Shown: positions 1-30,559 of the stretch, one piece after another
Layout: each line of letters opens with the position of its first letter
Position numbering within the stretch: position 1 is the stretch's first letter
Source: a virus
Reading direction: 5' to 3' (one strand)
Virus record (IMG/VR): IMGVR_UViG_3300042557_000613
Span: 1 to 32,297 of that record
Length of the DNA: 32,297 nucleotides
The notes under the pieces: model-generated
Databases searched by the model: none
Told to the model about the DNA's origin: nothing
What the model saw: only the letters and a program-made list of their open reading frames with translations
Made by a program: the position numbers and the translations under genes

Positions 1-42
1 CTCGATGCCGTTGCTAATATCTTTAACCTGGTAATGCTTCAT
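1..42 (-). CDS. Start of a probable prohead protease (partial, runs off left edge)
   Basis: Only the first 14 codons are present; they read MKHYQVKDISNGIE and then leave the window. The ATG lies 20 nt inside the end of the upstream head morphogenesis gene, the same kind of overlap seen at neighbouring junctions. The short basic start followed by a VKDI-type segment resembles the N-terminus of HK97-type prohead proteases, and a protease or scaffold gene is expected after portal and gpF. The product name is inferred from position and a short resemblance only. Confidence 0.4.
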   Translation of the reverse strand, partial: MKHYQVKDISNGIE

Positions 43-859
43 TTATCAAAGTTTGTAATTGCAAAAATAAGGTGTTATTCCATAGGTTCAACATATCGCC
101 TGCTGGCCCACGTAACCCACCTTGTATGTCAACAGGTTTTCCATTACTATCTCTTACTACTTCGAATCCTACCGTGCATCTACAATTACACACGTTACCT
201 GCGCTGCCGTTAGGGTCTCCGGGGAACTCCATAATATCTATGCTGCGTAAACCGGGAACTGTAAATGGCTCATCTATTCGTGTAGTCTTTCCATCCATGT
301 GTAGATGGTCATAATCATTGCGGGGTATTCTACGTGTACGGTCATCAGTTATTGCTATCCATTCTTTAACGGTTAGTAACCCAGTTGATACCGCCCCAAG
401 CATTGCACCCTGATTGGCGGCCCGTGTTGTTTCGGTACGTGCGATAAGTTCAGCCCGGTAAACATTGATACCTAATTTCTCTATTTCTTTCATCATTTGC
501 ATAATACTCCACCCCTCCTGCATACCTTGTATTAATACTTTGCGGATAGTTTCCTTAGTGGTAGATGTAATGCCGTTGACTAAATTAGTTAACCCTTGTT
601 CAAGAAATAGTTTTATAACTGCCGCCCATCTCTGTTCAGGTGTCATGGAATCCTTGATACCTGCCGACTTGCGTATTTTGTCATAGTTATACTTCGCCAT
701 CGTTATACCTGCATCGTTGTGCAGTTTGCGGATGTACTGCTTTAACTTTTCCTCATCCGGTTGCTCACCTTTGAGTAATGCCATACATTGCTTATCCAAC
801 TCACGCTTAATAAGTACCCTGTATCGTTTGCGGTATGCGTTATAAAGTTGGCGGTACAT
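23..859 (-). CDS. Phage head morphogenesis protein (Mu gpF / SPP1 gp7 family)
   Basis: Minor head protein of 278 residues, expected to sit with the portal inside the procapsid. The diagnostic part is the C-terminal half. It holds RAELIARTETTRAANQGA (about 135-152), WIAITDDRTR (167-176), an H-x-H at about 185-187 (DHLHMDG), and a terminal CNCRC cluster (about 226-230), as in the gpF domain. The N-terminal third is basic and helical. Its start lies 20 nt inside the portal gene, so the two are probably translationally coupled. Family assignment is strong; the exact role in the virion is by analogy. Confidence 0.88.
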   Translation of the reverse strand: MYRQLYNAYRKRYRVLIKRELDKQCMALLKGEQPDEEKLKQYIRKLHNDAGITMAKYNYDKIRKSAGIKDSMTPEQRWAAVIKLFLEQGLTNLVNGITSTTKETIRKVLIQGMQEGWSIMQMMKEIEKLGINVYRAELIARTETTRAANQGAMLGAVSTGLLTVKEWIAITDDRTRRIPRNDYDHLHMDGKTTRIDEPFTVPGLRSIDIMEFPGDPNGSAGNVCNCRCTVGFEVVRDSNGKPVDIQGGLRGPAGDMLNLWNNTLFLQLQTLINEALPG

Positions 860-2213
860 TCAGAGGCAGGTTAGTGAAATCATCAACGGGTGTCAAACCT
901 TGCGGAATGTACAACTTTTGATAATCTTCAATCGGTACATTCGGATCGGGTGCAAGTCCTTGTATCTTTAATTTCTGCTCGGGTGTTAACCACCACGCAG
1001 TATTTAACCAGGTAGATTGCTCTGCTCTGTTTGCTTCAAGTTCGGAGTAGATACTCATGTCAAAGTCCACGAATATATCCGACCCCTTATAACCCCAATC
1101 GGTCTGCATCTTTCGGTTGATATTATCCCTGATAGCAGTTAGTTCGGGTAACACCGCCCGAACGGTTAGCGATTTCTCCGCTTCCTTCATGTTGTTGTAC
1201 GTTGCAGCATCCGTATTACCCAGTAACACCGGAGGTACGCCATAGATTGAGCATAGGGCCTCTTTATCCCATTTCTCGGCTTCAATCAGTTGCAAGTCCT
1301 TTGCAGGTAACCCAATTTGCGCCCATCCTACTTTGTAGCCCGATACGGCTGCGCTGCCATGCTTTGCGGCCCCTGTGTTCGCTGATATTTGCATCTTGAG
1401 TGCCTGTGCTTGTTCGCTGCCGGATAAAGGGTCAAAGCGTTGGTCATCCATGTATAACACCCCTAACGGCCCCATGTTATCGAACATCGCTACGGATGCC
1501 TCCTTGCTTGCATTGGAACGTGTCAGTACCTTAGATGCAGCACGTAGCGGTGATAATCCGTACAACTGCCCTCCGGTCGCATTCCATTCGGGGTTGAAGT
1601 ATTTATCATGCAGAATCTCAATAGTATTGAAAGGGATATACTGCCCGTAGTAAAGTTGATAGGCTACCTTCTTTGGGGGGAACTGCTCAATATCTACTTT
1701 GATTGCCATGTATTGGGATGGCAGCATATAAAGTTCTAACGGCTTGCCTCTGTTTACTGATTCCTCACCGACCTGCTTTGCATACATGAAAGCATTGCCT
1801 GTTATCTTCTTAAACCCGACCCATTGCTCTATAATGTCGCTCCATGTATCTTCAGAGTTCGGGTATTTGAGTAATTCATTCAGCCTGCTATCGCCTTCGT
1901 ATATCTCGAATGCCTCTTCTTTCAGTTCCTTCAGTTTGGCATAGTCAGTAATAGCATCCGGTTGCTGCATCTTAGCCATGTAGCGCTTCTGCGCTGCTTT
2001 ATTCTTTACACGGTACACAAACCAGGGCGCAACCTTTGCTTTTTGGGTTATCAGCGTAATGATGGCATACACTAAATCATTGCCTATGTAACTATCCCGA
2101 ACTATCTCTGCTTGATTCTGCCCATCCCACGTGAGTAACCCACGCTCTACCGACATTTGCATAGGCATCTTAGCGGGTGCCGCCTTACGATTAAGAAAAT
2201 CGAATAAACCCAT
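840..2213 (-). CDS. Phage portal protein (HK97-type)
   Basis: Dodecameric portal through which DNA is packaged and to which the connector binds. The 457-residue length fits the HK97-like portal family. Visible family features are an early segment on entry and activity (DLVYAIITLITQKAKVAPW, about 46-64), ITGNAFMYA (about 136-144), the GLSPLRAA motif (about 219-226), and the late stretch CSIYGVPPVLLG (about 317-328), which is highly typical of phage portals. It lies between the large terminase, 36 nt upstream, and the gpF-like gene, which it overlaps. This is the standard packaging-module order. Confidence 0.93.
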   Translation of the reverse strand: MGLFDFLNRKAAPAKMPMQMSVERGLLTWDGQNQAEIVRDSYIGNDLVYAIITLITQKAKVAPWFVYRVKNKAAQKRYMAKMQQPDAITDYAKLKELKEEAFEIYEGDSRLNELLKYPNSEDTWSDIIEQWVGFKKITGNAFMYAKQVGEESVNRGKPLELYMLPSQYMAIKVDIEQFPPKKVAYQLYYGQYIPFNTIEILHDKYFNPEWNATGGQLYGLSPLRAASKVLTRSNASKEASVAMFDNMGPLGVLYMDDQRFDPLSGSEQAQALKMQISANTGAAKHGSAAVSGYKVGWAQIGLPAKDLQLIEAEKWDKEALCSIYGVPPVLLGNTDAATYNNMKEAEKSLTVRAVLPELTAIRDNINRKMQTDWGYKGSDIFVDFDMSIYSELEANRAEQSTWLNTAWWLTPEQKLKIQGLAPDPNVPIEDYQKLYIPQGLTPVDDFTNLPLNVPPTL

Positions 2214-2249: not shown

Positions 2250-3416
2250 TTACCATACCGCCACCTTGAACGCTGGCTTATGTAGGTGGGTGAATATGGC
2301 ATACCGCATCGCATCAAGGGCATCATCTGATTCCTTTACAGGTTCATCAATCACATTATCGTTTTTATCCTTGCGCCATTTGTAGGATTGCAGTTCACGA
2401 ATGATGTCTTTGCTATCCTTGTGTACGAATAACGGATATGATTTCACTTTCAGTATCCCTGCCCATACTTCTTTGTTTGCAGTTTGTGCGTTGATACCGC
2501 CCCTGTATAGTTCCTCAATGCTTTTCGGTTCGGCTGCATCGCAGTACACGGGCTTGCGGTCGCTGATATGATCCTTCACTTCCCTGCTTATTTCAGATGG
2601 GGTTAATCCGGATTTGTAAATCAGTTGCTTTACATAATTTGCCCCCTGGTAATGGCATACCTTGACAAGCGCAAGCGGATGCACATAACCGAAGTCTAAT
2701 CCATAGAATATATCGCCCCCTTCGGGTAACTCATCTGTTATTTGCCATTGGGTATAAATAATCTCCTTCGCAGCGCCACGCTCACCCAGTCCGTACACCT
2801 TCCACATGAAATCATCGGGTAGTAGTTTGTAGCTTTCAATCGTGTCTATCTGAATCTGCGAAAGGTTGCCGAGGTTATTAAGATAGGTTGAATGTATGCG
2901 TTTGTTGATTGGGTTATCCGATACTTCATAAACCCAACTAACGAAGTCTGCAGGATTCCAATCTAAGAATATCTTACCCGTTGTACGCATCGCCAGTTGG
3001 TCGAATAACGCCTTACGGATTAGGTTGGCTTCATTAACAAATAGTATATCCCTACCCGGCCCACGTGCTTTGCCTTCATCTTCAAGTCCAAATAGTTCGA
3101 TGTAGCTTCCATTATCAAATCGGTAGATAAAATCGGTGTAACTGAATTTCTTGTCATCCCATAGATGCCATTCTTCCATGATGGTTTTGAAATCCCTGTA
3201 TGCACCACGTTTGATATGTGGGAGGGAGTGCGATACAATAGAGATGCGGATGTTTTTGGCATTCTTATCGGCTGCGATTGAGATAAGGAGTTGTACTATA
3301 GAGTAACTCTTGCTGCTACGTGAACCGCCCTCATTACATATTATCGGGGCATCACTTTGGTATGCTTCAAGATTCTTAAAGAATACATCCGTTGCTCTAA
3401 TCTGTTTTAATTCCAC
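2250..3416 (-). CDS. terL: Terminase large subunit (PBSX/TerL family)
   Basis: ATP-driven packaging motor with a nuclease domain. In 388 residues it shows a Walker A variant GGSRSSKS (30-37), a Walker B with catalytic Glu DILFVNE (about 123-129), and an RNase-H-like nuclease core with Asp in YGLDFGY (D241), Asp in VYCDAAE (D293) and the late DDALDAMRYA. The start is GTG at 3416, which overlaps the preceding methyltransferase-like gene by 20 nt; an A-rich stretch rather than a Shine-Dalgarno site precedes it. It is separated from the small terminase by a modification cassette of about 4 kb, which is unusual because terS and terL normally adjoin. Confidence 0.95.
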   Translation of the reverse strand: MELKQIRATDVFFKNLEAYQSDAPIICNEGGSRSSKSYSIVQLLISIAADKNAKNIRISIVSHSLPHIKRGAYRDFKTIMEEWHLWDDKKFSYTDFIYRFDNGSYIELFGLEDEGKARGPGRDILFVNEANLIRKALFDQLAMRTTGKIFLDWNPADFVSWVYEVSDNPINKRIHSTYLNNLGNLSQIQIDTIESYKLLPDDFMWKVYGLGERGAAKEIIYTQWQITDELPEGGDIFYGLDFGYVHPLALVKVCHYQGANYVKQLIYKSGLTPSEISREVKDHISDRKPVYCDAAEPKSIEELYRGGINAQTANKEVWAGILKVKSYPLFVHKDSKDIIRELQSYKWRKDKNDNVIDEPVKESDDALDAMRYAIFTHLHKPAFKVAVW

Positions 3417-3975
3417 AGGTCTTAAATTCGTTTAACGTACAAAACTCTTCTTTAGTCTTTTGCAGAACCGAGTAAACATTCCACCCATCAGTAGTATTGC
3501 CCATAGCAGCAACGCTACCAACAGAGATAAGGTTATAACCGCAGACTTGAGCCAAATTACGATAGAACTCTTCGGTGTAGTAGTTGAATCCATGTCCGGG
3601 CCAGTTGCCTGTTTTGGGGTTTTCGGAGATGATATAACCTCCGACTTTAACGAGGTTGTGTTTATTTTTCCAACAGTTGTATATGGCTTTGATGTCGTGT
3701 TTGCCGTTTGTACCAACGTGTTCAGAGGTTCCGGCATCCACCAATAAATCAAACTGCTTGCTGAACTTGTGAAGTACGGATAAGTCCAACGGGGTTGAGC
3801 CGTTCTCACCCGATATGTCAATGGCTTCGTATTCTTTGCCTGCATAGTAACTGTCTTTAGTGTATGGTGCGGGTAATGGTACCCTGTAATCGTTTTGCGC
3901 TCCGAGGTCTACCACCGATTGTATATGTGGCAGGTAGGGGTCTATTAGTTTTGTTGTTTCGTGAGTGTAGCCCAT
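3397..3975 (-). CDS. SAM-dependent methyltransferase-like protein
   Basis: 192 residues with a class I methyltransferase layout. It has a glycine-poor motif I (VVDLGAQND, about 21-29), an acidic second strand (YEAIDISG, about 49-56), FDLLVDAGTSEHV (about 75-87), which matches motif IV regions of small-molecule or glycan methyltransferases, and VGGYII (about 111-116) before the next strand. The third glycine of motif I is replaced (GAQND), so activity is not certain. It ends 20 nt inside terL and starts 2 nt after the neighbouring methyltransferase, so it belongs to the same transcript. The substrate is unknown; a glycan or sugar is inferred from the adjoining glycosyltransferases. Confidence 0.7.
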   Translation of the reverse strand: MGYTHETTKLIDPYLPHIQSVVDLGAQNDYRVPLPAPYTKDSYYAGKEYEAIDISGENGSTPLDLSVLHKFSKQFDLLVDAGTSEHVGTNGKHDIKAIYNCWKNKHNLVKVGGYIISENPKTGNWPGHGFNYYTEEFYRNLAQVCGYNLISVGSVAAMGNTTDGWNVYSVLQKTKEEFCTLNEFKTCGIKTD

Positions 3976-3976
3976 A

Positions 3977-4588
3977 TTATTTCTTTAAGTGTACCACTAT
4001 ATCCCTGTGGTCGGGTGTTAGGTTACGGCTAACAATTTTGAATTTATGCTTCATAATATCAACCGTTCTATCATCTTGGTAGAAGTGTCCGATTAACATT
4101 CTATCTCCTAAAATGTACTTGCTCCAATCATCGAAGTCGGGAAACTCTGCTTTAAGTTTATCAAAGTTACTAATCATTATCACACAATCCCCGCCCTTCT
4201 TCATCACTCTGTAAATAGATTGCAGATACTCTTTGATGGCATCATTTGAGAAGTGGCAGAATACTCCGTAACTAAATACGAAGTCAATTGAGTTGTCCGG
4301 TATGCCTGTGCATTTGTAATCTTGATTATCCAACTCAATGTACTTCACATTATGATACCTTACTCCATCATGTATTGGTATTACATCTATTCCGATTACA
4401 TTATCGAACTGCTCTGATAGTACCTTAGTAAATACACCGCCACCGCATCCTATTTCTAAACAGGTTTTATTACTGAATGGCACAATAGTACGTTCAATCA
4501 CCTTGTCTATGCCTATCCCATAGGTAAACGCTTCATAATATCCGCTCTTGCCCCAAAAGTTAATGAATTGCTCTTTGGTGAAGTCCAT
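3977..4588 (-). CDS. Class I SAM-dependent methyltransferase
   Basis: 203 residues with a textbook Rossmann methyltransferase core. It shows motif I LEIGCGGG (44-51), GIDVI ending strand 2 (66-70), SIDFVFSYGVFCHF (about 100-113) as motif IV/post-IV, and VMKKGGDCVIMIS (about 128-140). These features fit the Methyltransf_11/23 group that acts on small molecules, sugars or lipids rather than DNA, since no target-recognition domain is present. Its start overlaps the stop of the 58-residue upstream gene by one base (TAATG), which argues for coupled translation. It is probably part of the glycan-modifying cassette. Confidence 0.85.
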   Translation of the reverse strand: MDFTKEQFINFWGKSGYYEAFTYGIGIDKVIERTIVPFSNKTCLEIGCGGGVFTKVLSEQFDNVIGIDVIPIHDGVRYHNVKYIELDNQDYKCTGIPDNSIDFVFSYGVFCHFSNDAIKEYLQSIYRVMKKGGDCVIMISNFDKLKAEFPDFDDWSKYILGDRMLIGHFYQDDRTVDIMKHKFKIVSRNLTPDHRDIVVHLKK

Positions 4589-4764
4589 TACTCGTTGGGT
4601 TGTTTAGATTCACTAAATGTTGCATCAAATGCTGCTATTGCATTATTTGCCTCGTACCATGCGGATTCCCATCCTGCATTCGGCTTCTTTATGCACTCTA
4701 AATATACCTCCAACCATAACTGCTTTCTTTGTCGCTTGTGTATTACTTTTTCTCTGTCATTCAT
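4588..4764 (-). CDS. Small hypothetical protein, 58 aa
   Basis: The reading frame starts at ATG 4764 and ends in TAA 4590-4588. It fills the gap between two cassette genes exactly, with 2 nt upstream and a one-base TAATG overlap downstream. The protein is charged and helical (MNDREKVIHKRQRKQLWLEV at the start, then ECIKKPNAGWESAWYEAN), with no signal or membrane segment. I do not recognise the family. The AGWESAWYEANNAIAAFD segment looks like a short amphipathic helix, so it may be an accessory or adaptor protein. The tight packing is the main support. Confidence 0.7.
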   Translation of the reverse strand: MNDREKVIHKRQRKQLWLEVYLECIKKPNAGWESAWYEANNAIAAFDATFSESKQPNE

Positions 4765-4766
4765 AA

Positions 4767-5504
4767 CTAATCCTTTACCCCCCAGTTAATAAAATAAGGT
4801 TCAACAGGTAGATAATGCCTGTATGCCAACCCTCCGTACGGCTGCACCGGAATCCCTGCTAAGTTCATCAATCCGGATAGTAACGCCTGGTCATGCCGGC
4901 TGCTGATAAATTGCGGGTTAACGGATTCATTGTGATGAAAACAATTCTCTTTTGCTCCCTTTATCCATTTTTCAAAGATAGGCATCGTTGCGGGGTGGTC
5001 GAAATCAAACACAATGCAACACGCCATAATCTGATACATGGTAATCACATCCCTATAGCTATTTAGCCCTAAGAACTTAATCTGATGGTCGGGTATGTAC
5101 TTGTGTAGCGGATGCCCCTCGTTGTTCCATGCTACTATCCCGTGTTCGGCTGCTAATGCCCACAACGGATCGGGATTCTGGTGTACCCTGATTGTTGAAT
5201 CACACCAAATGATTTTCCGGTATCCCATCTCAAGTGCCTCCGCTACCATAAACGGCTTGAATTGATAAGGCATATTTTGGTGATTCCATGACTTGCCCCA
5301 TCGTTCGGTATCAGGCCAGTCGCCGAGGTGAATCTTACGCTCTAAGTACTCATCCACATACCCATCCACACTTCGCAGGTGAGTGTCATAGTCCGGTGCT
5401 TTGCGGTCTATACTGCGAATGAGTCCTAATTGTGCCTCGTTGTAGTTTTCCCTGCCTGTAGAGGATAGGGATACGATTACTTTACCGGATGTTATCTGGC
5501 CCAT
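4767..5504 (-). CDS. Glycosyltransferase-like protein (GT-A type)
   Basis: 245 residues starting at the ATG that gives MGQITSG; an ATG 30 nt further upstream is less likely because it would deepen the overlap with the FkbM gene from 13 to 43 nt. The central part has RKIIWCDSTIRV (about 96-107), a D-x-T at the end of a hydrophobic strand in the place where GT-A enzymes carry DxD. It is followed by a hydrophobic block and a HDQALLSGLM helix (about 204-213), as in GT8/GT32-like and capsular-sugar transferases. No membrane segment is present. Family assignment is tentative, and the sugar and acceptor are unknown. Confidence 0.6.
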   Translation of the reverse strand: MGQITSGKVIVSLSSTGRENYNEAQLGLIRSIDRKAPDYDTHLRSVDGYVDEYLERKIHLGDWPDTERWGKSWNHQNMPYQFKPFMVAEALEMGYRKIIWCDSTIRVHQNPDPLWALAAEHGIVAWNNEGHPLHKYIPDHQIKFLGLNSYRDVITMYQIMACCIVFDFDHPATMPIFEKWIKGAKENCFHHNESVNPQFISSRHDQALLSGLMNLAGIPVQPYGGLAYRHYLPVEPYFINWGVKD

Positions 5505-6091
5505 ATTACATTTTCTAAGTTTGTTAATAAGCATTTCGTTAACCCTGCCTTATTGCAGTAATCTTTGATAAGGTGAAATAAATCTACATTACCATTATGC
5601 TCAATGCATACCATCTGCGTATGCTTGAGGTTAATCTGTTCGAGTATCTCATAATCTACCCCCTCGGCATCAATACTGATGAAATCAAAGTATTTAAATG
5701 GCGAGTTCTTAATTAGGGTGTTGTAAGTCCATACCTCTGTCATTCGCTCTTTGAACTCCGTACCCGGCCATCGTTTGAGTTCAGTACGTTTGATTGTACT
5801 AAGTAGGGATACATCCCCCTTGCCCAAATGGTTTCCCATCTCATGGAAGGTACAATGCCCATCTGTTTCGCCTATTGCTACATTGAACTTGTGTACCATA
5901 GGATTGGCTAAGATGCGGTTGAAGGCTTCCTCAGATGGCTCTACCAGTACACCGCTCCAACCCTGTTGCTGCAATGCGTAGGTATTGGATAGGGTAACCC
6001 CATCGTTCGCCCCAATGTCAAGGAAGAATCCTTTGCGGGATTGGAAGTAGGAAAGGATAATGTCCTGTTCGTTGTTTTGGCTATATCTCAT
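5492..6091 (-). CDS. FkbM family methyltransferase
   Basis: 199 residues with the hallmark FkbM features: FFLDIGANDGVTLSNT (about 22-37, SAM binding), GVLVEPSEEAF (about 47-57), and FDFISIDAEGVDYEIL (about 135-150), where the acidic pair is typical. FkbM enzymes O-methylate sugars or natural products. The gene starts with an ATGA overlap on the GT2 gene and ends 13 nt inside the next glycosyltransferase-like gene, so it is translationally linked to both. Sugar O-methylation is the natural reading of a GT/FkbM pair; no substrate can be read from the sequence. Confidence 0.92.
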   Translation of the reverse strand: MRYSQNNEQDIILSYFQSRKGFFLDIGANDGVTLSNTYALQQQGWSGVLVEPSEEAFNRILANPMVHKFNVAIGETDGHCTFHEMGNHLGKGDVSLLSTIKRTELKRWPGTEFKERMTEVWTYNTLIKNSPFKYFDFISIDAEGVDYEILEQINLKHTQMVCIEHNGNVDLFHLIKDYCNKAGLTKCLLTNLENVIWAR

Positions 6092-6630
6092 TTGTTTGTC
6101 CTGAATTGATAATGATAAAGTTCCTTCTCAATCTTCACCTCGGTCTTAATCAGCCCGGCATTGTGTATAGCAGTAGCCCAGGCATAATCTTCACCGATAC
6201 GTATATCCATGAAAGGGAACGCCATAGCAATCTCCCTGCGTATTGGTACAATGTGATTAGGGTAGCGGTAATACGCCCCGCCCTTCGCCTCATAGCCGTA
6301 ATCCTTTGATATGTACCACTTCCTTTCATCCCTGCCATCTGTGGTCATTGTGCCATTGAATACGATGGCATCGGGATTACTCTCGGCTGCCGTTAGTATG
6401 TCTTTAACGTAGGTACTTGCAACCATGTCATCATCATCTATGAATACCACATATTTGCCTGTGCTGCGGTGTAGTAGTATATTTCTTTTCCTTCCCGTAC
6501 TCATAGTACCATTATCCGACTCGGTTAGAACTTCAACCTCCGGTGTACGTTGCGGTGTCAGTACCTGTAGCAACTTCGAAAGATAGCCGATGCGTTGGGG
6601 TAGGGTGCAAATGAGTATTGATAGGGTCAT
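6088..6630 (-). CDS. Glycosyltransferase family 2 protein
   Basis: A compact 180-residue GT-A enzyme. LSILICTLPQRIGYL (3-17) is the nucleotide-sugar binding strand, YVVFIDDDDMV (60-70) carries the DxD metal site, and RIGEDYAWA (about 144-152) holds the ED catalytic-base motif of GT2 enzymes. No membrane segment is seen, so it should act in the cytoplasm, where virion proteins and DNA are. It joins its neighbours on both sides through ATGA stop/start overlaps. Confidence 0.9.
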   Translation of the reverse strand: MTLSILICTLPQRIGYLSKLLQVLTPQRTPEVEVLTESDNGTMSTGRKRNILLHRSTGKYVVFIDDDDMVASTYVKDILTAAESNPDAIVFNGTMTTDGRDERKWYISKDYGYEAKGGAYYRYPNHIVPIRREIAMAFPFMDIRIGEDYAWATAIHNAGLIKTEVKIEKELYHYQFRTNK

Positions 6631-7385
6631 ACATTCTGTTTAGGAAACCCGGCTTTTGACCGCCGGATATAGGTTATCTCATCAGCACGGTAAAACGATT
6701 GAGTGTGATTCAGCAACGCATCCACAGGTTCACCAGTCCATGCCGGGTGGTAGTGGTCAAATATCCGCTTATCTACGTATTTATACGCATTTATCTGCTT
6801 TGCCACATCCATAGCCTCGTTATCGCACCAAAGGGATTCATATTGGGGGTGGTAGATGTACCCGAACCGCTCATAATACGTTCTACCCATGATACTCATT
6901 GTAGGTAGCAGGTGATTAACCCGCCCATCGGGAAAGTGAATGAATAGGTCTAAGTTACCCTCAAATGCGTTGATAATGTCAATGTCATAGCCGTGCTTAA
7001 TGAATCGCATATCATCGCTCATATTCACAACTATATCCCCCTGCCATCCTTCCATGCCCCGGTTGATGGCGTGTACCTTGCTTTTGGATTTACCCATTGT
7101 GATAAACACATTAGGGAACTTTAGTAGGTCGGATAACTCATTTGAATTGAGCGTAACGGTATCATCATCATCTACGGTCAGTCCAACCGTGTACTTCTTA
7201 GAATGTGAATATGCCTGAATGGTAGCAAATGCAGCAGCCATCTTTTCGGGCCGGCTTCGTGTAGCAAAGTTGTAATGTATGTGCATGGTGTCCGAGCGTG
7301 TTTCACAAAGATAGCAAATATCTTTGGTGTGGTCCATCTGTAACCTGCACTTTTGTTTTCCACAATAGATGCACAATTTATACAA
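6627..7385 (-). CDS. Glycosyltransferase-like protein with N-terminal Cys-pair module
   Basis: GT-A-like protein. TVGLTVDDDDTVTLN carries an acidic DxD-like cluster, and DIVVNMSDDMRFIKHGYD is a second conserved-looking acidic strand. The N-terminus has two CxxC pairs (CIYCGKQKC and ICYLC), about 16 residues apart, that could bind one zinc. The start is uncertain. ATG at 7451 would overlap the small terminase gene by 74 nt, so I use TTG at 7385, which keeps both Cys pairs and overlaps by 8 nt. ATG at 7337 or 7286 would lose part or all of them. It ends in an ATGA overlap with the GT2 gene. Acceptor unknown. Confidence 0.7.
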   Translation of the reverse strand: MYKLCIYCGKQKCRLQMDHTKDICYLCETRSDTMHIHYNFATRSRPEKMAAAFATIQAYSHSKKYTVGLTVDDDDTVTLNSNELSDLLKFPNVFITMGKSKSKVHAINRGMEGWQGDIVVNMSDDMRFIKHGYDIDIINAFEGNLDLFIHFPDGRVNHLLPTMSIMGRTYYERFGYIYHPQYESLWCDNEAMDVAKQINAYKYVDKRIFDHYHPAWTGEPVDALLNHTQSFYRADEITYIRRSKAGFPKQNV

Positions 7386-7656
7386 TGGGCTGTGATTTGG
7401 TGTCGGGGATAATTTGAATGATGGTAGTCGGCATTGGGTTATCGGGATCATTGGCTACCTGTAGCGGGATGAGTTTACTTGCCAGTCGGTAAAATTCGGT
7501 TGGGTTCGATTCTGCCCAAGTCATAATATTTGCCGATGGGGATTGCTGCAATAACTCAAACGCATAGGCAAAATGTTCCCTCACCGATTTGGTAGCCCTG
7601 TTCGGTGAACCCTTCGGCCTACCATTTGGATTGTTCGTATGTCCTTTCTTTGGCAC
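7378..7656 (-). CDS. Small terminase-like / DUF5681-type protein
   Basis: 92 residues opening with a GTG start and the sequence MPKKGHTNNPNGRPKGSPN. This NPNGRPKGSPN stretch is the hallmark of DUF5681-type proteins, found next to terminases and thought to act as the small, DNA-recognising subunit. The rest is helical (SVREHFAYAFELLQQ; NPTEFYRLASKLIPLQV). It is the first gene of the late operon, 22 nt downstream of a predicted promoter and beside a repeat array that could be its binding site. The TerS role is inferred from motif and position. Confidence 0.7.
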   Translation of the reverse strand: MPKKGHTNNPNGRPKGSPNRATKSVREHFAYAFELLQQSPSANIMTWAESNPTEFYRLASKLIPLQVANDPDNPMPTTIIQIIPDTKSQPIV

Positions 7657-7677: not shown

Positions 7678-7710
7678 CAAAGGTACTTACTTCCAACTCA
7701 AACCACCAAA
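7678..7710 (-). promoter_or_regulatory. Predicted late promoter upstream of the terminase operon
   Basis: On the minus strand a -33 TTTG (7710-7707) is followed after 21 nt by TACCTTTG (7685-7678). This matches the Bacteroidota vegetative promoter consensus TTTG-N19-21-TAnnTTTG exactly. The predicted start site is near 7671, giving a leader of about 15 nt before the GTG of the small terminase gene. The -33 element overlaps the first copy of the ATTCTCAC repeat, so a protein bound there would directly touch the promoter. Confidence 0.65.
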
Positions 7711-16478: not shown

Positions 16479-16913
16479 ATGCTAACCAAAAAACTCAAAA
16501 CAGAACGCTTAAACGCATCCCCCTTTATTACTCTTTACTTGCCATCCACGCCAAAACAAAGGATAAGCTACTTTGCGCTCCCAGGTATGAAAGGGAAAGT
16601 CAATGTACCTATCGTATTAAATTCAAAACTGCAAATAGATAATATAATTAAGACTTGCAGTAATTACTTCCGGATTTCGTTTGAGTCTTTGCAATCCAAA
16701 AGCCGAATGAGAAATATAGTAGTAGCCCGTCACATTACGATGTGGTACCTGCTGAATCAAACGGAAATTACCTTATCAGATGTAGGCGCAATATTCGGTA
16801 GCAGAGATCATACCACCGTTATACACGCTAAGAAATCAGTTAATGATAGCCTTACTTCTAAGTTCGATAACGAGTACAAAACCCATATTGAAAACCTTAA
16901 CGTAATTTTATGA
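16479..16913 (+). CDS. Stand-alone DnaA domain IV-like protein
   Basis: 144 residues. The C-terminal 80 residues match the DNA-binding domain IV of DnaA: YFRISFESLQSKSRMRNIV (start of the domain), ARHITMWYLLNQTEITLSDV, then the signature GSRDHTTVIHAKKSV (about 107-121). The AAA+ ATPase domain is absent, and the first 50 residues (SPFITLYLPSTPKQRISYFA) replace it. It may direct replication initiation, compete with host DnaA for DnaA boxes, or act as a transcription factor. It follows a strong terminator, so it needs its own promoter or read-through; I see no consensus promoter. It ends in an ATGA overlap with a tiny membrane protein. Confidence 0.85.
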   Translation: MLTKKLKTERLNASPFITLYLPSTPKQRISYFALPGMKGKVNVPIVLNSKLQIDNIIKTCSNYFRISFESLQSKSRMRNIVVARHITMWYLLNQTEITLSDVGAIFGSRDHTTVIHAKKSVNDSLTSKFDNEYKTHIENLNVIL

Positions 16914-18294: not shown

Positions 18295-18563
18295 AAACTT
18301 GCTTCCACAATCATTTGAGCGATTGAAGTTTTGTAAGTTACCCCAGCCTTTACAACGAACCCCTGCAATATCCAAACACCTGGCACATCTATATCTCCCA
18401 CCGTTGTAGTGTAGGTTATCTCATGGTTAGCGATAACGGTTGCCCCCCATGACCCTGTTTCACCGTTGGGTTTTTTATAGTAGATGTCAGATGAAGTAGG
18501 GTTGTGTAGATTAACCCCTGTTTCTGTTAGCTTTATTGTTACGTTGGTGCCGTTGTATATCAT
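18291..18563 (-). CDS. Ig-like / BppU-type tail-region protein
   Basis: A 90-residue all-beta protein. NVTIKLTETGVNLHNPTSSD, then ANHEITYTTTVGDIDVPGVW and ILQGFVVKAGVTYKTS, resemble the N-terminal immunoglobulin-like domain of BppU baseplate proteins. It is coupled by ATGA overlaps to the repeat protein upstream and the phosphoesterase downstream. It probably joins fibre or decoration proteins to the tail. The assignment is structural resemblance only. Confidence 0.55.
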   Translation of the reverse strand: MIYNGTNVTIKLTETGVNLHNPTSSDIYYKKPNGETGSWGATVIANHEITYTTTVGDIDVPGVWILQGFVVKAGVTYKTSIAQMIVEASL

Positions 18564-19303
18564 GATTCAAATATTGATGTGATTGTTACGTTATAATGAT
18601 TTGATTCCTGTATTGTTACGGTTGTGCTTTGTTCGTTATCAATGGTAACGGTATTATTCTGTTGACTAACAATATTAACCTGTGTAGTTTGCGCTGATTG
18701 AATTGTTACGTTAGAATTGAACTGATACAAAGGTACTATGAGATTCGCATCAAAACCTGTGAGTATAAATATGCCACGTTCGGCGGTGAGGGTTGCATCC
18801 CCTTCTTTCTGCAAAGTGGCATCGTTGCCTGTGAGTAGGTAAGTGCCTTTATCCGCTACAAGTGTGCGAAGTATGTCTATTGTGGCTGCGTTGCCTACAA
18901 GTGTAAATGTTCCCCTATCGGCTACTATTCTGCGACTTGCTATAACCCCGGCATCGCTTCCGGTAAGTACAAATGTGCCTCTGTCGGCTGCAACTGATTT
19001 GACTACTTGAAAGTTGGCATCGAATCCTGTGAGTACGTACGTTGATTGATCGGCTGCGATTCTACGTGCTGCGGTTGTGCCTGCATCGTTTCCGGTGAGC
19101 GTGTATGTTGCCGTATCGGCTACAATGGTTTTGCCGAGTTGGAAGTTAGCATCGCCACCGGTGAGAGTAAAGGCTGCTACCGTTGCAGCTATCTGAAATG
19201 CACTTCTTAAATCTACTACGTTACCCGTTAGGGTGTATTCACCCCTATCCGCAACAATGGTATTGCCTGTTGCACCAGTATTACGTAATAGCGTTAAAAG
19301 CAT
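18560..19303 (-). CDS. Tandem-repeat tail-region protein (about eight 22-residue repeats)
   Basis: 247 residues. Residues about 15-190 consist of around eight copies of a 22-residue unit of the form VADRGTFxLTGNDAxxxxxR, for example IVADTATYTLTGNDAGTTAA and VAADRGTFVLTGSDAGVIAS. A Thr/Val/Gln-rich beta tail follows (NVTIQSAQTTQVNIVSQ; STTVTIQESNHYNVTITS). This repeat is common near tail genes of many phages and probably forms a beta-solenoid or stalk. Repeat units are divergent but keep the LTG core. No catalytic motif. Likely a virion fibre or decoration protein. Confidence 0.7.
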   Translation of the reverse strand: MLLTLLRNTGATGNTIVADRGEYTLTGNVVDLRSAFQIAATVAAFTLTGGDANFQLGKTIVADTATYTLTGNDAGTTAARRIAADQSTYVLTGFDANFQVVKSVAADRGTFVLTGSDAGVIASRRIVADRGTFTLVGNAATIDILRTLVADKGTYLLTGNDATLQKEGDATLTAERGIFILTGFDANLIVPLYQFNSNVTIQSAQTTQVNIVSQQNNTVTIDNEQSTTVTIQESNHYNVTITSIFES

Positions 19304-30118: not shown

Positions 30119-30559
30119 TTAGTACGTTTTAGTTTGGGTCATTGGCGCACTTTGAACACCAAACTCTGCATCGAACTTCATCAAGTCTTTATCCTTTGCA
30201 TCCAATTTTATAGAGGTAACAAAGATATTACCCGTGTAAACGATGTCGCCGGATACAGGAGATGCAGGACCGAACTTAGCAGCAACTACTGCCTTGCTAC
30301 CTACCAAAGAATACAACCGCTCGTAGCTTTCTTTATCGATTGTGCCTGTTTGGTCGATTGCATTACCGCTAACCGAAATAGTTTGCATTACGCTATCACC
30401 AGGCAGTTGTTGGTCGCCACATTTAGAATCGGCATCAATGGCATCTCTTTTTACATCCATTGATACAGAAGTTAAACACGCAACAGGGAGAAACGTAGAA
30501 TTATTATCCCAGTCAATTTGCAGAATTATATCTCTGCCGTTTACGAAAGTGTATGCCAT
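30119..30559 (-). CDS. Major tail tube protein
   Basis: 146 residues, the normal length. FVNGRDIILQIDWDNNSTFL at the start, then ACLTSVSMDVKRDAIDADSK and SGDIVYTGNIFVTSIKLDAK, are typical of the TP901-1/phi13-type tail tube family. It lies between the tail terminator-like gene and the tail chaperones, exactly where the tube gene is expected. The N-terminal part resembles that of the 229-residue protein at 25134-25823. Confidence 0.85.
   Translation of the reverse strand: MAYTFVNGRDIILQIDWDNNSTFLPVACLTSVSMDVKRDAIDADSKCGDQQLPGDSVMQTISVSGNAIDQTGTIDKESYERLYSLVGSKAVVAAKFGPASPVSGDIVYTGNIFVTSIKLDAKDKDLMKFDAEFGVQSAPMTQTKTY

Follow-up and report, generated by a model that had tools for sequence, protein, structure and literature searches.

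Why should a phage carry glycosyltransferases (GTs) and methyltransferases between its two terminase genes? At this locus, seven tightly coupled genes, all on the minus strand, lie between a putative small terminase gene (terS) and the large terminase gene (terL). The window, by which we mean the whole stretch of 32,297 nucleotides analysed, comprises positions 1-32,297 of IMG/VR record IMGVR_UViG_3300042557_000613, which is incomplete, about 3 kb of the genome being absent. It stops at a minor head gene. In relatives the protease, capsid and GT4 genes come next, and the stretch following the major capsid gene is not reached by this 32-kb record. The late genes of the window are co-directional, and the features used below are as follows.

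7678..7710, minus: promoter-like site of the Bacteroidota type, TTTG-21-TACCTTTG, directly upstream of terS (consensus match only)
7378..7656, minus: putative terS, 92 aa, DUF5681-like (weak, supported by position)
6627..~7385, minus: GT1, glycosyltransferase (phrog_14945, E 1e-14)
6088..6630, minus: GT2, family-2 glycosyltransferase (PF00535, 8.5e-8)
5492..6091, minus: FkbM-family (sugar) O-methyltransferase (PF05050, 1e-15; TIGR01444, 8.5e-14)
4767..5504, minus: GTlike, probable GT-A glycosyltransferase (TOD1/MUCI70-like), medium-low confidence; a longer frame runs from 5534
4588..4764, minus: 58-aa accessory protein (phrog_9711, unknown function, 3.9e-5)
3977..4588, minus: MT, class I SAM methyltransferase (PF08241)
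3397..3975, minus: MTlike, class I SAM-methyltransferase fold
2250..3416, minus: large terminase subunit, terL (phrog_2, 4e-37)
840..2213, minus: portal protein (PF04860, 1.6e-44)
23..859, minus: minor head protein at the window end, Mu F-like judging from its synteny with that of phage 11b
18560-19303: T-rich repeat protein, 247 aa, versus 204 aa in one relative
30119..30559, minus: tail tube protein, candidate acceptor (PF06199, 3.4e-8; phrog_1407, 7e-17)

Read from terS to terL, the junctions measure -8, -4, -4, -43, +2, -1, +1 and -20 nt (negative values are overlaps), the last being the 20-nt overlap of MTlike with terL given in a preliminary description of this DNA. An alignment of 20 homologues placed the GTlike start at a conserved Met 11 (position 5504), so that the FkbM/GTlike overlap is about 13 nt rather than 43. 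The start of GT1 is uncertain, its frame being open to 7451. The terS candidate shows a partial DUF5681 match only (4e-4), and the gene just upstream of terL in Sulfitobacter phage pCB2047-C encodes a weak homologue of it; these matches, together with its position, make it a putative small terminase subunit. Matches to the Bacteroidota-type promoter consensus numbered five in the window against 1.65 expected, a count reached in 1 of 100 shuffles, while generic sigma-70 and terminator scans of the window gave no excess over shuffles.

The family assignments differ in strength along the cassette. FkbM scored above the curated cut-offs of both models (58.7 bits versus 22.7 for PF05050 and 52.2 versus 37.7 for TIGR01444), and a phmmer search with it gave no match. 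GT2 also matched phrog_14775 (5.9e-38) and phrog_8858 (4.6e-31). GT1, for which the Pfam match was only 0.07, has GT-A features, with a DDDD motif and N-terminal Cys pairs. For GTlike and MTlike, sequence-family searches gave no convincing match and their profiles matched none of the sequences of solved structures; searches against isolated phages with these two and GT1 were likewise negative, and a search of genome contigs found no relative of GTlike. The structure prediction recommended at the outset was informative for MTlike, whose AlphaFold2 model (pLDDT 74) matched methyltransferases in Foldseek at E 6e-6 with probability 1.00; its predicted fold is the Rossmann-like class I SAM-methyltransferase fold. 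For GTlike the outcome was weaker. Its model (pLDDT 65) gave PDB matches that were all at E of at least 1, with GT-A enzymes at the top, and in a viral library it was linked, at E 0.009-0.04, to TOD1/MUCI70- and GT32-like proteins, so we assign it only tentatively to the GT-A glycosyltransferases.

To examine conservation we selected viral contigs by terL, a choice neutral with respect to the cassette, and counted as denominators the loci with room for the gene in question. MTlike was present in 52/52, GTlike in 36/36, FkbM in 36/36, GT2 in 18/18 and GT1 in 14/14. The order terS-cassette-terL, which we had been advised to look for, was kept in 28 distinct loci of relatives as well as in the terL-selected loci; the placement is therefore not due to chance, and the seven-gene cassette is real. 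Its variable parts are the 58-aa gene (10/28 relatives) and the slot of the second methyltransferase, which holds MT in 14/28, a TylF-type enzyme in 3/28 and neither in 11/28; the TylF-type enzyme is, by its family, probably a sugar O-methyltransferase. Median pN/pS was 0.066-0.09 for the GTs and FkbM, compared with 0.057 for terL and portal, and the cassette enzymes are under purifying selection. GTlike and MTlike were absent from 297 sampled Bacteroidota genomes (a positive control was run for GTlike). Together, the selection and this absence contradict the notion that these are recently acquired, inactive host genes. Two syntenic Bacteroidota phages have neither the cassette nor an annotated capsid-adjacent GT. 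The virus belongs to a lake-type or otherwise aquatic, uncultured group whose host is probably a Bacteroidota. We leave the assignment at that level because a terL search of genome contigs gave, apart from remote relatives, only a partial one (68%), located in a MAG contig of Gammaproteobacteria that is possibly mis-binned.

A decisive feature is found beyond the window. Every distinct relative in which this region is covered (15/15) has a gene for a GT-B (GT4-type) glycosyltransferase directly after the major capsid gene. The preliminary description had counted two GT-A enzymes and one GT-like protein; GT1, GT2 and GTlike are indeed in the cassette, but the count falls short since the phage group encodes a GT-B enzyme too. 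A second link comes from mycobacteriophages. With the known sequences (LittleE, Yoshi, Forza) kept out of the query, the profile-profile comparison of GT2 with Che8 gp108 gave 99.7%; the N-terminal half of that protein is a homologue of GT2 (33% identity over 181 aa), as is LittleE gp15, while the TylF enzyme of some relatives is homologous to the C-terminal half of gp108 and to the Corndog-type O-methyltransferase. Two marks of a locus of the Che8/Corndog type are present here: several GTs and an O-methyltransferase clustered with virion genes, and, in GT2, a homologue of the glycosyltransferase domain of gp108.

We consider it probable (roughly 0.7) that the cassette is a virion-glycosylation locus, whose enzymes glycosylate and O-methylate a virion protein in the cytoplasm, with the capsid as the likeliest target. 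Virion glycosylation is well supported by the capsid-adjacent GT4, by the matches of GT2 and TylF to the two halves of gp108, and by the GT/methyltransferase clusters in mycobacteriophage head operons. The cassette would be transcribed late in infection, within the packaging and head operon. GT1, GT2 and GTlike, with the capsid-adjacent GT4 known in relatives, would act in the cytoplasm and assemble a short glycan on a virion protein, drawing on host nucleotide sugars as donors, and FkbM and MTlike, plus the optional Methyltransf_11 or TylF enzyme, would O-methylate the sugars. We conjecture that the resulting coat alters the surface properties of the particle, acting in binding, protection, adsorption or predation. 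We infer substrate, sugar methylation, co-transcription and biological role; observed directly were the genes present and their families, their fixed placement and purifying selection, the capsid-adjacent GT4 and the gp108 homology.

The acceptor is a candidate only, the major capsid protein and/or the tail tube protein being most likely. The capsid of relatives ends in ...YATI and the tail tube protein in ...QTKTY. The C-terminal Ser of mycobacteriophage capsid and tail proteins, found in Che8 and in Firecracker, a cluster O phage used as a sequence stand-in for Corndog, is thus absent, which counts against the virion-glycosylation reading. Also against it, nothing homologous to Che8 gp110 / Corndog gp38, the essential transferase, was detected with profiles of GT1, GT2, GTlike and GT4. 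A site other than a C-terminal Ser may serve as acceptor.

The same enzymes could act on other targets. Were modified bases in packaged DNA the substrate of the GTs, a location in the packaging operon would fit, phage DNA glycosylation has precedent (cited in PMC12619734), and the window does encode one N4/N6 DNA methylase. Yet among the window proteins scanned with Pfam, which cover part of the genome, we recognised no thymidylate-synthase-like, hydroxymethylase, TET/JBP or dNMP-kinase family, GT2 and GT4 match virion-glycosylating or head-operon GTs rather than alpha/beta-glucosyltransferases, and GT4 adjoins the capsid gene in relatives. DNA hypermodification, one of two hypotheses favoured earlier, therefore appears very unlikely, while the other, in which a virion protein is glycosylated and O-methylated, has gained support. 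Conversion of the host surface, in which the enzymes would alter LPS or capsule and block superinfection, had been judged to fit less well, and we consider it unlikely. FkbM, GT2 and GT4 belong to families common in polysaccharide loci and polysaccharide glycosyltransferase models match GT2 weakly, but the hallmarks of gtr-type serotype conversion (a membrane flippase, GtrB, a polytopic Gtr and a temperate lifestyle) were not seen: the cassette has no GtrA/GtrB-like or other membrane protein, its highest 19-residue Kyte-Doolittle mean is 1.28, as expected from the claim that no membrane segment is present, and Pfam recognised no integrase in the window proteins scanned. The late-operon placement, an argument that holds, speaks against it as well, and so does the lack of GTlike and MTlike in the sampled Bacteroidota genomes.

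The glycan might instead be attached to a tail fibre, receptor-binding or repeat protein and tune adsorption. The product of 18560-19303, with its T-rich repeats and varying length, would be a suitable target, and the late genes share one direction; but GT4 is fixed beside the capsid gene and not beside fibre genes, and we regard this target as rather doubtful. Finally, variable small ORFs and optional slots are what a recently acquired, partly decaying moron region without virion function would contain, but no informative relative lacks the core genes and their pN/pS is low, making such an origin extremely improbable. Overall the original observation is confirmed and its interpretation partly supported.

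Extended to the group, virion glycosylation would mean that a large set of aquatic phages, probably of Bacteroidota, carries a coat of O-methylated oligosaccharide on its capsids, using enzymes split between the terS/terL and capsid/connector sites and a non-C-terminal acceptor, a proposal to which we give even odds. If it is true, virion glycosylation is not peculiar to actinobacteriophages, and escape from animal antibodies could not be its role. In the literature searched, virion glycosylation by phage enzymes has been demonstrated experimentally only in mycobacteriophages, where it is discussed as an antibody shield. A conserved, selected gene set in aquatic phages suggests a wider function; the glycans might, for instance, stabilise particles in the environment, serve adsorption or protect against predators, and the cassette supplies concrete genes with which a general function of phage glycans can be tested.

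Among known phages, those in the phage collection with the closest capsid proteins are Flavobacterium phage 11b and Cellulophaga phi10:1 (27-30% identity). Their head gene order is identical, but they have no glycosyltransferase cassette, and no GT is annotated behind the capsid gene; in 11b, terS overlaps terL with no cassette between. For mycobacteriophages, PMC11256854, PMC12619734 and PMC12363180, citing Freeman 2023, describe the virions of Che8, Corndog and Myrna as bearing glycans, with a requirement for gp110/gp38. The Corndog capsid-modification genes gp35-38 (an O-methyltransferase, two GTs and a putative GlcNAc-transferase) lie inside the head operon between portal and protease (PMC4351075), as in Firecracker, and the O-methyltransferase is of the TylF type related to the optional-slot enzyme. 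The insertion site differs, however, as do the host phylum and the GT set, which is non-homologous to ours except for a marginal match of GT1 to the gp37 type; the cassette also lacks a recognisable gp38 homologue. Che8 (cluster F) carries in gp108 fused homologues of GT2 and the TylF slot enzyme, and its virions are reported, in the literature cited above, to be glycosylated; gp108-gp110 lie at the right genome end and include no FkbM, MTlike or GT4. In LittleE and Omega (cluster J) the head operon encodes several GTs, the GT2 homologue gp15 among them, and SAM methyltransferase domains. Although they have no terS-terL insertion of this kind and their GT block contains no match to GT4 or FkbM, that block, placed between capsid and connector in LittleE (PMC3706429), sits where the cassette relatives have their capsid-adjacent GT4. 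Gp20 of Streptomyces phage TurkishDelight, which differs in having two GT4 domains in tandem, is a GT4 homologue located between the capsid and major tail genes.

Seven genes lie between a candidate small terminase gene (terS) and the large terminase gene (terL) in this record of 32,297 bases, which is classed as linear and is probably incomplete. All are on the minus strand, in this order:

terS candidate, 7378-7656 region, minus strand
GT1, minus strand, glycosyltransferase (phrog_14945)
GT2, minus strand, glycosyltransferase (PF00535; phrog_14775/8858)
FkbM, minus strand, O-methyltransferase (PF05050/TIGR01444)
GTlike, start at 5504, minus strand, probable GT-A enzyme
58-aa ORF, minus strand
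MT, minus strand, methyltransferase (PF08241)
MTlike, minus strand, predicted class I SAM methyltransferase
terL, minus strand

The successive junctions from terS to terL are -8, -4, -4, -43, +2, -1, +1, and -20 nt (negative values are overlaps), in agreement with the tight packing noted in the preliminary description. However, an alignment of 20 homologues places the conserved start of GTlike at Met 11, so that the true FkbM/GTlike overlap is about 13 nt rather than 43 nt. The start of GT1 is uncertain, its open frame extending to 7451, and its Cys-rich N-terminus is kept in most relatives. The assignment of terS is plausible but weak: it is based on a partial DUF5681 match and on a Sulfitobacter phage whose terL is directly preceded by a weak homologue.

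Family-model searches gave no match for MTlike, which is a class I SAM methyltransferase by predicted structure, and no convincing match for GTlike. Confidence in the GTlike model is modest (pLDDT 65); GT-A enzymes head its list of PDB neighbours, although the matches are not significant, and a viral library returned uncharacterised phage proteins together with GT32, TOD1/MUCI70-like and DUF616 proteins at E 0.009-0.04. GTlike is taken here as a probable GT-A enzyme. As described previously, no cassette protein contains a membrane segment.

Scans of viral contigs confirmed 110 (GT2), 93 (GTlike), 492 (terL), and 101 (MTlike profile) relatives, the best 80 being kept per scan. GT1, GT2, FkbM, GTlike, and MTlike were all present in 28 of 28 distinct terS-to-terL loci from these sets, including L013, where GT1 overlaps terS; the gene order that the preliminary description proposed to look for is therefore conserved. 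Because two of the queries behind this set were cassette genes, loci found by terL alone (best 80 of 492) were counted separately. Where there was room, MTlike was found in 52/52, GTlike in 36/36, FkbM in 36/36, GT2 in 18/18, and GT1 in 14/14. In one MTlike-positive locus, L152, the last residues of MTlike are EKFKKCGIATS, and an inserted gene, which by inspection encodes a DNA methylase, parts it from terL. MT is an optional gene: its slot holds MT in 14 of the 28 loci, a TylF-type sugar O-methyltransferase in 3, and neither in 11. Median pN/pS at moderate divergence was 0.066-0.09 for GT1, GT2, GTlike, and FkbM, 0.13 for MT, and 0.21 for MTlike, compared with 0.057 for terL and portal. Low pN/pS and conserved presence indicate that the cassette is maintained and not decaying, contrary to the refuting condition in the preliminary description of phage copies recently acquired and inactive.

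DNA methylase and HNH-type genes interrupt the region in single relatives (L016:3763-4482, L002:6468-6815, L152:1-753), so the region takes cargo without loss of the core. In many relatives, the GT2-FkbM gap holds small unrelated ORFs, up to four in tandem, that are absent from the window (L057:2565-3596, L073:2050-2454, L002:5128-5690). Their first ~20 nt are identical (AATAACATGGCACAACAGAC, often encoding MAQQTAVEWL), with complete divergence thereafter, which looks like a shared leader or a recombination boundary for variable small genes. The terL of several relatives is split in frame by an intein-like insert with Hint/intein splicing domains (L011:8743-10728, L024:10919-12898, L054:4370-6364; boundary DDA|C...VHN|C), within the conserved DDAxDAMR nuclease motif. 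Elsewhere in the window, 18560-19303 encodes a protein built from T-rich repeats (ADRGTFTLTGNDA...), each some 18 residues long; it has a shorter counterpart in a relative and is possibly a surface-exposed virion protein. The gene at 16479-16913 encodes a phage protein with the C-terminal DNA-binding domain of bacterial DnaA (PF08299, 4e-22).

Relatives extending beyond the left end of the window carry, in this order, genes for terL, the portal, the minor head protein, the prohead protease (PF04586), the major capsid protein (PF05065), a further glycosyltransferase of GT4 type (here GT4; 315 aa; PF00534, 4.7e-17), and the head-tail connector. GT4 lies between capsid and connector genes in 15/15 distinct loci with room. 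The window lacks the protease-capsid-GT4 stretch because the record begins just past the minor head gene and stops within the connector gene; judging from close relatives, whose terL is 98-99% identical, its own genome would have GT4.

By capsid sequence, the closest isolated phages are Flavobacterium phage 11b and Cellulophaga phi10:1, and both have their head genes in the same order. In phage 11b, however, terS overlaps terL by 4 nt with no cassette between them, and the capsid gene is followed only by small ORFs; phi10:1 has no annotated glycosyltransferase either. This kinship, terL matches to Parabacteroides/Bacteroides phages, and a promoter-like site upstream of terS (TTTG-21-TACCTTTG, matching the Bacteroidota consensus) point to a probable Bacteroidota host. 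One contig assigned to a Gammaproteobacteria MAG (L189, RGPR01000135.1) has a terL 68% identical to that of the window phage, perhaps through mis-binning or as a host clue.

Over 181 aa, GT2 shares 33% identity with the N-terminal domain of mycobacteriophage Che8 gp108, a protein whose TylF-like C-terminal domain matches the TylF slot enzyme of the relatives. Profile-profile comparison, with known sequences left out of the query, gave 99.7-99.9% to Che8/Yoshi, LittleE, and Forza proteins. PMC12363180, PMC12619734, and PMC11256854, all citing doi 10.1016/j.chom.2023.05.028, report glycans on Che8, Corndog, and Myrna virions, describe Che8 gp110 and Corndog gp38 as essential for them, and place the glycans at the C-terminal ends of the capsid and tail tube proteins. 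The Corndog portal-protease interval holds an O-methyltransferase, two glycosyltransferases, and a GlcNAc-transferase, and its authors proposed that the capsid is modified by methyl and glycan groups (PMC4351075); in cluster J phages, glycosyltransferase and methyltransferase genes separate the capsid gene from the connector gene (PMC3706429). In Streptomyces phage TurkishDelight, a tandem homologue of GT4 is encoded between the capsid and major tail genes.

Given the gp108, TylF, and LittleE homology, the Corndog and cluster J head-operon loci, the reported glycans, and the TurkishDelight GT4, the best reading is that the cassette would glycosylate the virion with O-methylated sugars. Of the two roles favoured in the preliminary description, this one gains from the homology to gp108, while hypermodification of DNA loses ground, as no base-modifying partner enzymes were recognised among the proteins scanned. 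Conversion of the host surface, already judged a poorer fit, is disfavoured by the lack of membrane components in the cassette and of a recognised integrase. We found no previous account of the phage group or of its cassette in the open-licence literature, although one may exist elsewhere.

Capsid and tail proteins of Che8 and Firecracker end in Ser, whereas in the window's phage group the capsid ends in ...YATI and the tail tube in ...QTKTY. Profile comparison found no gp110/gp38 homologue in the cassette enzyme set. The cassette is therefore not a member of the mycobacteriophage systems in every defining respect. Nevertheless, it probably works as those systems do, on a putative virion acceptor.
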